A stretch of 22,807 nucleotides of DNA from a virus, in the IMG/VR virus record IMGVR_UViG_3300028920_000281, positions 1-22,807 of that record. The stretch is one strand, 5' to 3'. The translations under genes were made by a program, and so were the position numbers. The notes beneath the pieces were generated by a model that did no database searches, was not told the origin of the DNA, and saw only the letters and a list, made by a program, of their open reading frames with translations. Positions 13,530 through 22,189 of this stretch are shown piece after piece; the first letter of the stretch is position 1; every line of letters starts with the position of its first letter.

Positions 13530-14129
13530 CTACCTCCCTGCCTGGTCAAGCTCATGACAGCTGTAGAACAGCCTTCCGTCAGGAGCATATATTTCAACAT
13601 ACTCATCATCCTGAAACTCGTACTCATACTTTATCTTGCTAAAGTCAAGCCTTCTCTCTGACTCATGCCCTTTCTTAAGCACTTCCCTTGCCGTTATATA
13701 GAAACGGCTGAAAAGGAAGGAATAGTTCTCAAGGTACTTATCAAGGGCAAAGACAGGGTGATAACTGGCAAGGAAGATGACCCTCCATGTCTTCTTGATC
13801 TTAAGGAACTCATCTATCTTTGTCAGGTTGGTAAAGATCAGCACTATGTACTTATCATCCACCAGTTCATTGACAAGATCGGACAGGCCCTTATATAGCC
13901 CCGGCTCACCACCACTGATAGTTACCTGTCTCACATTATCGGTATATTTTATCTTGCTAAGCCAGTAATTATAACCATATTCATCAAATACCGGGGCCCT
14001 GCCATGTGCCTTATTAACGCTGCAATAGGGGCAGTTAAGGTTACATCTCATCGTAGGCTTGAAGATAAATGGTTTGCCTCTCTTAAGCTTCTTAGCCAGT
14101 TCCCATCTGACCTTTCTTATATCTTTCAT
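13530..14129 (-). CDS. Short radical SAM protein
   Basis: A 199-residue radical S-adenosylmethionine protein. The cluster-binding motif CX3CX2C is at Cys29, Cys33 and Cys36 (MRCNLNCPYCS), and the SAM-contacting GGEP at 73-76 (ISGGEPGLYK). The alternating strand/helix pattern continues (YIVLIFTNLTK, WRVIFLASYHP) to about residue 140, so a shortened barrel is present. No full SPASM domain with extra iron-sulfur cysteines is visible; a lone Cys lies near the end (YSCHELDQ). The start overlaps the stop of the glycosyltransferase gene as TAATG (14127-14131), which couples the two. Substrate is unknown; a role in peptide, nucleotide or glycan modification is possible. Confidence 0.88.
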   Translation of the reverse strand: MKDIRKVRWELAKKLKRGKPFIFKPTMRCNLNCPYCSVNKAHGRAPVFDEYGYNYWLSKIKYTDNVRQVTISGGEPGLYKGLSDLVNELVDDKYIVLIFTNLTKIDEFLKIKKTWRVIFLASYHPVFALDKYLENYSFLFSRFYITAREVLKKGHESERRLDFSKIKYEYEFQDDEYVEIYAPDGRLFYSCHELDQAGR

Positions 14130-14998
14130 TACTGTATACTTTTAAAAAATGGAACAACAAGATTCTCTTCATTATATTCGTCTATCACGGCTCTCTTCGC
14201 ATTGTCAGCCTTGATACCTATATATGGATCATCCATTGCTTTTTTTATGGCCTGATCAATGGTATCTTCATAATAGCCACATCCATACTTATCAATAACC
14301 TTGACCACCTCTCTCATGTGACTGGCACAGACAACGGGCATGCCACTATTCATATAGCAGAACAGCTTGTTAGGGCTGGCATGGTTGTTTTGTGGATTAT
14401 CGGGATTGGGCAACAGCCCTATGCCTCTTATCTTGAGAAAGACGGTGCATTCACTTTTTATATGGTATATATCATGATCTACATCTTTGAGGCCACGGTC
14501 ACGACCAATAAAGACAAGCCTTTTATGCATGACACCCAATGACTCATTGCTGTTAACACCTACATTGGGATAGTACAGGTCTGTACCATACATGTCGGCT
14601 ATGCCCTTTGTCACGGTGACAATGGTGCCATGCTTCTTGACCTTACGTATCATCCTGTTTATCCTTGCAGGGCGAAAGAACCACTTAAGGAACCTGAACC
14701 TGAACCTGGCATGGTTAAAGCAATCGTAGAAATTCTCATGCAGGTCACATATTACTTTCTTTCTTCTCCATCTCTTCACGCCTGCACAGCTGAGGAACAG
14801 GTCGTGGCAATAGAGGGCATCGAAACGATAGAAAAGGGTTATCAGCCATACCATCCATGTATACCCCGGCACCCAAAAGAATTTGGCCACCATAGGTGGT
14901 ATATATAATGTCTTACTGTCAACAAGGTATTTCTGGCTCTTGGACACACGCAGGTCATTATATTTACTTGGGTGGTCCGTAAGTATTAAATATCTCAT
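14129..14998 (-). CDS. GT4-type glycosyltransferase
   Basis: A 289-residue protein with the hallmarks of bacterial GT-B (GT4-like) glycosyltransferases, which move a sugar from a nucleotide-sugar donor. In the N-terminal acceptor domain CHDLF (64-68) and VICDLHENF (82-90) match the family's 'HD...D.HE.f'. In the donor domain FIGRDRGLKD (163-172) is a degenerate start, and SPNKLFCYMNSGMPVV (208-223) is the conserved nucleotide-sugar-binding stretch normally SPnKlfEYma.G.PVv. The usual acidic residue (E in EYM) is Cys here (LFCYM), which may alter catalysis. At 289 residues it is shorter than the roughly 350-400 typical of the family, the donor domain being trimmed. It may glycosylate host envelope or phage structures. 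Confidence 0.88.
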   Translation of the reverse strand: MRYLILTDHPSKYNDLRVSKSQKYLVDSKTLYIPPMVAKFFWVPGYTWMVWLITLFYRFDALYCHDLFLSCAGVKRWRRKKVICDLHENFYDCFNHARFRFRFLKWFFRPARINRMIRKVKKHGTIVTVTKGIADMYGTDLYYPNVGVNSNESLGVMHKRLVFIGRDRGLKDVDHDIYHIKSECTVFLKIRGIGLLPNPDNPQNNHASPNKLFCYMNSGMPVVCASHMREVVKVIDKYGCGYYEDTIDQAIKKAMDDPYIGIKADNAKRAVIDEYNEENLVVPFFKSIQ

Positions 14999-18958: not shown

Positions 18959-19501
18959 ATGTGCTTAATAACAAGACAACAAAAATCAATCACTGCTAAA
19001 AAAGATATAGTGGTGTTTAAACAGATTAAGGTCAATCCTGTTATGACAAATGATGAAAATATCATTGAATACATGTCACCATACAATCACTTTTACTGGA
19101 AGAAAGGTGTTACATATAAACAGAAGATGATGTTTACCAATAAAAATAAACTTGTTAAGAGATATATTATTCATGTATATGATTTTACATGTCGTGAATA
19201 TTATTTTGTAGGGTTTACTACATTGGAATGTTTACGTTATCCTGAATCAAGGATTATACAAAATGGTTTTCATGCTGCAATAAGTCCAAAGAGATTTGCC
19301 AAGTTTCAATATCTCAAAACATATCCATTTGTAATTCCTAAGGGTGCAAAGTATTATCTCGATGATACAGGTCTCATTGTTAGTAATATAATGAAGATAC
19401 ATGATGATCTTATCGATGTCACTGACTATGATAATGATTATGTAGCTCTTTTATATGGTAAAAACATGTTAAATATTAAAATACCATCTGTTATCAGATA
19501 A
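18959..19501 (+). CDS. Conserved phage protein, GFH...IPKGAKYY type
   Basis: A 180-residue protein beginning MCLITRQQKSITAKKDIVVF. Near residues 103-105 is GFH, and IPKGAKYYLDDTGLIVSN lies around residues 125-142. The pattern 'MCL.t......AkkDI..yK......GFHs........IPkGA.Yy' recurs in phages of diverse hosts in my experience, without known function. Mostly beta-type sequence with many aromatic residues (YIIHVYDFTCREYYFVGFTT). A cluster of small genes follows. Start: ATG at 18959, 30 bases after the previous stop. Confidence 0.82.
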   Translation: MCLITRQQKSITAKKDIVVFKQIKVNPVMTNDENIIEYMSPYNHFYWKKGVTYKQKMMFTNKNKLVKRYIIHVYDFTCREYYFVGFTTLECLRYPESRIIQNGFHAAISPKRFAKFQYLKTYPFVIPKGAKYYLDDTGLIVSNIMKIHDDLIDVTDYDNDYVALLYGKNMLNIKIPSVIR

Positions 19502-21780: not shown

Positions 21781-22073
21781 GGGGCTGACATTGGTATCGA
21801 CAGCAGTATTGAGTTACCCAACACAATCAGAGCAATGACAGATAATCTCTTTAACTTTTCTGTCAATCAATTAAATGACGAGAATATAATATCTCTTCAT
21901 GCTGACCAGCAGCTCAAGGTAGCTGCATAATCAGCCGGGCAAACCAGGATGCCTCGGAACAGAATATCCTGGCATTTACCTAGTTCGAATAGGTTTTCAT
22001 AGCAGGTTTTTATGATTGGTTAATGTTGGATATGATTGCTGACTGGACAGGGGTTCGAATCCCCTCAGCTCCA
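21781..22073 (+). ncRNA. ssrA: tmRNA (transfer-messenger RNA), phage-encoded
   Basis: A complete tmRNA of 293 bases. The acceptor stem pairs GGGGCTG (21781-21787) with CAGCTCC (22066-22072), discriminator A at 22073, and CCA not encoded. The T arm is AGGGG/CCCCT with the standard TTCGAAT loop (22049-22065). Helix P2 pairs CAGCA (21801-21805) with TGCTG (22037-22041), CCAACA (21818-21823) with TGTTGG (22024-22029), and CAATC (21824-21828) with GATTG (22014-22018). The tag frame ends VAA and TAA at 21928-21930, within helix H5 (GCTGA 21901-21905 with TCAGC 21931-21935; GCAGCT with AGCTGC, loop CAAGGT). A downstream helix CCAGGAT/ATCCTGG fits a pseudoknot. It rescues stalled ribosomes and tags proteins for degradation. 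At 293 nt it is shorter than the usual 350-360. Confidence 0.96.
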
Positions 22074-22126
22074 CAATATGCTTCGGGAGAATAGTCTTCG
22101 CCTAGTCTATTAATCCTTGTCATGAT

Positions 22127-22169
22127 GAGGAATCGGGTTTTTTGCTGTTAACCTGGTTCCTCTTTTTTT
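22127..22169 (+). terminator. Rho-independent terminator after the tmRNA
   Basis: GAGGAATCGGGTT (22127-22139) pairs with AACCTGGTTCCTC (22150-22162) as a 13-bp stem with two wobble pairs and a 10-base loop, followed by seven T (22163-22169). It follows the tmRNA by about 50 bases of unannotated sequence (22074-22126, no gene seen). Confidence 0.95.
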
Positions 22170-22189
22170 ATTCACAAATATTTATAGTT

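Follow-up and report, generated by a model that had tools for sequence, protein, structure and literature searches.

A one-piece tmRNA gene with a long predicted tag in a crAss-like phage fragment, and two tmRNA layouts among Crassvirales

Results

A tmRNA gene in a phage fragment

The DNA analyzed here, a 22,807-base IMG/VR virus record that we refer to as the window, was scanned with ARAGORN and with all of Rfam, and the sole RNA gene to emerge from both scans was one tmRNA on the + strand. Specifically, cmscan aligned positions 21781-22076 (+) with the full length of RF00023 (model 1-374 of 374) at 83.1 bits and an E value of 3.5e-31, against a gathering score of 47, and ARAGORN placed the gene at 21781-22074. 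A first-pass annotation had proposed a tmRNA at 21781-22073 and had named a covariance-model search and a tmRNA finder as checks; the covariance score is strong rather than failing, and the finder concurs (Table 1).

The ends of the gene are those of a standard tmRNA, with seven of seven acceptor pairs, the G3-U70 pair and the T arm GGGGTTCGAATCCCC. G3-U70 is the alanine identity pair read by AlaRS. The CCA end is absent from the gene sequence, positions 22074-22076 reading CAA. The order of the parts is likewise standard and not permuted, in that the 3′ tRNA-like part does not come first as in RF04321. A long P2 links the tRNA-like and mRNA-like parts in both the RF00023 alignment and the fold, its 5′ side pairing with the 22013-22041 region in a somewhat ambiguous register. 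Overall, the 296-nt strand has a predicted folding energy of -88 kcal/mol (z -3.27 against 200 dinucleotide shuffles, 0/200 of which were as good), and the predicted H5 helix consists of GCUGA/UCAGC with an inner GCAGCU/AGCUGC. The pseudoknot region is seen as hairpins only, by tools that fold no pseudoknots and without close relatives for covariation. The gene is too short for four pseudoknots of typical size (PK1-PK4); at 293 nt, compared with ~394 nt for host-type tmRNAs, one or more of them is therefore probably missing.

Downstream of the gene, the modeled hairpin at 22127-22169 is likely a terminator, and it was missed by a consensus terminator scan because its loop is 10 nt. Consensus promoter matches numbered 13, against 13.7 expected by chance.

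Table 1. Features of the window tmRNA gene and of tmRNAs in other Crassvirales
Feature	Location or length	Strand	Basis or remark
One-piece tmRNA (ssrA) gene	21781..22073	+	293 nt before CCA addition; RF00023, ARAGORN, fold
Acceptor stem, 5′ strand GGGGCTG	21781..21787	+	pairs with 22066-22072, 7/7 standard including G3-U70
Helix P2, 5′ side (segments CAGCA, CCAACA, AATCA)	21801..21829	+	RF00023 alignment and fold
H3-type hairpin GACAGA...TCTGTC	21837..21864	+	fold, coordinates; ends 12 nt before resume codon
Frame-setting pentamer TAAAT	21872..21876	+	A at -4 corresponds to E. coli A86
Predicted tag frame DENIISLHADQQLKVAA and stop TAA; resume codon GAC	21877..21930	+	ARAGORN coding part 97-150
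H5-type hairpin around codons 9-17 and stop	21901..21935	+	fold, coordinates
Two more hairpins, pseudoknot region: CCAGGAT../..ATCCTGG, ACCTA../..TAGGT	21944..21994	+	fold
Acceptor stem, 3′ strand CAGCTCC, and discriminator A at 22073	22066..22073	+	
Likely intrinsic terminator: 13-bp hairpin, then seven T	22127..22169	+	fold of 22074-22175, z -3.39
cr106 tag DNTYRVAA	8 codons		resume rule
G076 tag ADTYTTAYDMAA	12 codons		resume rule
G072 tag GNVINLQPSQEVRLTA	16 codons		resume rule
G077 tag GKTIVFVPAAKLALVA	16 codons		resume rule
G061 tag AKNNILSMSFPTMQIAA	17 codons		resume rule
G067 tag AKVVVMTPASSTVIRLAA	18 codons		resume rule
G049 tag GKSNMISFGFAAPRVYAMAS	20 codons		resume rule
G048 tag GKSNVISFGFAAPVAVRMAA	20 codons		resume rule
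phi14:2 (L183) one-piece tmRNA	KC821624 4031-4502		unannotated in record
Permuted two-piece tmRNAs, Suoliviridae	L061 (NC_055895 20629-20985), L062, L203-L210, L089		

Tag frame and resume codon

With respect to the tag, the window gene is predicted to resume translation at GAC 21877 and to encode a long peptide of 17 codons, DENIISLHADQQLKVAA, which follows the charged Ala and precedes a TAA stop at 21928-21930. In E. coli, the UAGUC that precedes the resume codon sets the frame; A86, 4 bases upstream of that codon, is essential, with every change strongly damaging, and the resume codon is found 12 nt past pseudoknot 1 (PMC2481249). Around GAC 21877 the matching bases are present (A at -4, U at -5), and exactly 12 nt separate this codon from the end of the 21837-21864 hairpin. 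When a UA-NNN-resume rule was applied by script to nt 70-115 of the gene, the sole fitting frame was that of GAC at nt 97. As a yardstick we used eight Bacteroidota-type tmRNAs fetched from viral contigs by the tag pattern GE[NT/S..]NYALAA; these have resume codons at nt 95-97, a length of ~394 nt and 9-codon tags, and having been picked by tag they say nothing on the uniformity of host tags, although resume position and length are independent of the picking. Three observations thus lead to GAC 21877: the fit to the UA-NNN rule, the distance of 12 nt from H3 and the host-matching nt 97.

The first-pass annotation had begun the tag at AAT 21874, giving 18 residues over 21874-21927. The long tag holds, as does the argument that a resume codon upstream of H5 favors it, since both ARAGORN and the frame rule place GAC 21877 there. 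The AAT start was dropped because it has A at both -5 and -4, and U85A in E. coli tmRNA shifts the frame (PMC2481249); GAC, which fits exactly, yields 17 codons. With Asp and not Asn in first place, only DEN is left of the NDEN that had been likened to the E. coli tag. In agreement with the suggestion that H5 takes in the second half of the tag, the fold puts the last nine codons and the stop inside the predicted H5-type hairpin at 21901-21935. Near the end of the tag, K at -4 and V at -3 stand where the host tag has A and L, and a search of viral contigs with the tag end DQQLKVAA returned no match. Tags of 10 aa are the most frequent in the tmRNA database of 2025 (PMC11915505).

The phage and its nearest relatives

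The phage origin of the window, already proposed in the first pass, is upheld by its structural proteins. The capsid scores 383 bits against the Crassvirus capsid model of Pfam (Crass_capsid, PF23898), and the portal, terminase and head (capsid) proteins match PHROG head and packaging families with E below 1e-86. On the strength of these matches, we assign the window to a crAss-like phage (Crassvirales). Neither terminase nor capsid reaches 60% identity to any entry of the phage collection. The MCP is 34-36% identical to those of named Steigviridae and 27% identical to those of Suoliviridae, the best terminase matches are from Suoliviridae at 37-39% identity, and metagenomic contigs come closest, their capsids being 53-83% identical. 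The lineage belongs within Crassvirales and appears to lie near no named family. The window is a single metagenomic fragment, and a tmRNA was found in 0/32 of the records nearest to it by terminase or capsid, most of which are short fragments but which include one 94-kb and one 86-kb contig; consequently, there is no close relative to show conservation of the tag. A search with the neighboring gene at 18959-19501 as bait recovered no relative, and a contig that had seemed related by score (L007) turned out to be an unrelated high-GC contig. At 13530-14998, within the structural half of the fragment, a radical SAM protein and a weak glycosyltransferase match are neighbors.

tmRNAs across Crassvirales

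Judging from our survey, tmRNA genes are common across Crassvirales and come in two layouts, one-piece and permuted. One-piece tmRNAs (RF00023) were found in cr106_1, in phi14:2 and in seven IMG/VR contigs, counted as Steigviridae-like on a capsid identity of 65-85% to crAss001. Two of these nine matches fall under the gathering score (phi14:2, 46.0; G077, 46.2), and ARAGORN calls both. Of 15 distinct Steigviridae-like records that reach 90 kb, six have a one-piece gene, the grouping being by capsid similarity and not by tree; the survey negatives are lower bounds, given stricter filters in the RF00023 scan and the many records that are fragments. Weak RF00023 matches confined to the T arm, seen in many genomes, were set aside as ordinary tRNAs, and matches in cr118_1 and cr4_1 likewise proved on checking to be tRNAs.

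Read by the resume rule, the Steigviridae-like tags span 8-38 codons and are mostly 16-20 (Table 1). The tag of phi14:2, a cultured phage whose host is Cellulophaga baltica #14, could be 38 codons by the A-at-minus-4 rule and is 11 by ARAGORN. Intact tmRNAs elsewhere in Crassvirales have open tag frames with small or hydrophobic ends (cr106, G067, G061 and G048). Long tags recur in Steigviridae-like phages, so that the length of the window tag reflects a wider pattern among such phages and is no quirk of one fragment. The window gene and the Steigviridae genes are alike in phage order, gene form and mostly long tags, and the window tag, like that of cr106, is read from GAC and ends in [RK]VAA. 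Nonetheless, the Steigviridae tags cannot be aligned with that of the window, whose lineage is distant.

Circularly permuted tmRNAs (RF04321) were found in 11/14 Suoliviridae genomes, the exceptions being cr118, cr55 and cr4; eight of these matches are above the cut-off, and the other three are called permuted by ARAGORN. A core of the [VI][TVM]DYT type (NYS in cr115) is present in 10/11 of the tags read by rule, and in cr53 this reading found no tag. The result is a tag of 12-14 codons, GN..V.DYT, that is both conserved and specific to these phages, as exemplified by GNFYVTDYTRIAA, GNTSYVMDYTRLAA, GNNFVTDYTQLAVA and GNVNNIVDYTNVA. Within DYT, 32/50 pairwise codon differences are synonymous, and this mostly synonymous pattern supports selection acting on the tag as translated, with the caveat that the sequences share ancestry. 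A control Bacteroides genome gave an RF00023 match and no RF04321 match. Permuted tmRNA has its three main bacterial clades in Alphaproteobacteria, Betaproteobacteria and Cyanobacteria (PMC11915505) and is also known from aquatic phages (PMC9004378). The Suoliviridae form belongs to the same phage order as the window gene and the same function is expected of it, yet it is a two-piece gene with a conserved tag, whereas the window gene has the standard one-piece form.

Predicted function and alternative readings

Taken together, these observations make it most probable that this crAss-like phage encodes a working one-piece tmRNA that relies on host SmpB, each functional step being modeled on homologous systems. 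SmpB was found neither in the window nor in 20 tmRNA-bearing Crassvirales records, with the same model matching 10 bacterial controls, so that the RNA would have to use the SmpB, AlaRS and CCA enzyme of the host. Transcription would run rightward with the adjoining small early-type genes and end at the terminator; host RNases would trim the transcript, the host CCA enzyme would finish its 3′ end, and host AlaRS would charge it via G3-U70. Host SmpB would bring the charged RNA into ribosomes stalled on truncated mRNA, where translation would restart at GAC 21877, append Ala-DENIISLHADQQLKVAA and halt at TAA. The likely gain for the phage is that ribosomes would be freed from mRNA destroyed in the course of infection, and the released fragments would carry the phage's longer tag in place of the 9-codon host tag. 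Such a change could alter how these fragments are handled, and an altered tip may change ClpXP recognition or redirect tagged proteins, as the first pass had suggested.

Other readings of the locus were weighed against this one. Were translation to resume at GCT 21901, the frame would be identical and the tag, ADQQLKVAA, would have the nine codons of the host. We give this start next to no weight, as its T at -4 breaks the A that is essential in E. coli, where changes to A86 are all strongly damaging (PMC2481249), it would sit at nt 121, inside H5, and not at 95-97, and ARAGORN picks GAC over it. Comparison with host-type tmRNAs, another check named in the first pass, places the resume codon nowhere else (nt 97 versus 95-97), and the short host-like tag was not found. 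It is also very improbable that the RNA acts as a tRNA-like decoy, tying up host SmpB or AlaRS and so inhibiting host trans-translation, even though such a role has been suggested for the pared-down tmRNA of mycobacteriophage DS6A, and phage tmRNAs with a TLD only do exist, both in DS6A (PMC4131195, PMC11915505) and, in our survey, in L029. A decoy needs no frame-setting pentamer, no open tag frame with its stop, no P2 and no set of several hairpins, and the window gene has all of these.

The gene might alternatively be a captured host gene, decaying or transient, that has no phage role and is present as an attachment-site remnant or through recent transfer. The absence of a tmRNA from all 32 nearest-relative records and its patchy distribution in Steigviridae are in line with capture, which we rate as improbable all the same: the seven acceptor pairs, the tag frame and the stop are all intact, and no integrase-type match came up when 14 rightward genes, with all those near the tmRNA among them, were scanned in Pfam and/or PHROGs. 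Moreover, neither the exact 5′ end of the tmRNA nor a looser variant had a match in the GTDB-set genomes, and the gene is therefore not a fresh host copy.

Discussion

The window gene resembles Bacteroidota host tmRNAs (tags GENNYALAA/GETNYALAA) in its tRNA-like ends, G3-U70, P2, nt-97 resume position and TAA stop. It differs from them in length (293 versus ~394 nt), in a 17- versus 9-codon tag that ends in LKVAA and not YALAA, and in a GAC resume codon where the host has GGC. Phage tmRNAs are already established, and the survey pattern across Crassvirales is more interesting than the window gene itself. They are known in mycobacteriophages Bxz1, Cali and Wildcat and in Bacillus phage G (PMC4131195), and the Melnitz phage has a two-piece tmRNA (PMC9004378); these are phage-borne like that of the window, but the phages and their hosts are unrelated. 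A 2025 tmRNA database holds 79 unique phage sequences (PMC11915505). The first-pass statement that tmRNAs are rare in phages is sound overall, with 402/18,146 phage genomes carrying one (PMC9004378), but it fails for Crassvirales, where they are common. RefSeq annotates a tmRNA in cr7_1, cr124_1, cr50_1 and cr106_1, and the phi14:2 record is without such annotation. Our full-text search of the open-licence literature found no paper discussing Crassvirales tmRNA genes.

It is conceivable, and we offer it only tentatively, that Crassvirales tmRNAs as a group overwrite the host protein-tagging signal during infection. One-piece genes with long, variable tags (Steigviridae and the window lineage) and independently permuted two-piece genes with a conserved GN..V.DYT (Suoliviridae), the latter in phages that infect Bacteroidota, a phylum not among the three bacterial groups from which permuted tmRNA has chiefly been described, might then both carry tags that steer stalled proteins to a fate suiting the phage. 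crAss-like phages are among the most abundant human gut viruses. If they commonly bring their own rescue RNA and degradation tag, protein quality control would be a regular target of infection. Having a cultured host, phi14:2 makes the question directly testable, and long phage tags are natural variants for asking what the ClpXP of Bacteroidota recognizes.

Other RNA elements were observed in the surveyed records. At L029 9506-9588 lies a tmRNA of ~83 nt that consists of the tRNA-like domain alone, like that of mycobacteriophage DS6A. cr4_1 (NC_055893) is a crAss-like phage carrying a Hatchet ribozyme match (L228 881-1001; 51.6 bits, cut-off 51), which lies at the edge of the stretch and is incomplete. 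On L005, a 96.9-kb contig, a GOLLD RNA (159 bits), a tmRNA encoding the tag AEPLKLAA and ten tRNAs lie together in one 10.8-kb stretch. The phage contigs L025 and L027 have one-piece tmRNAs with tags ending in PTYAYA or PTYAYAA, another non-LAA family.
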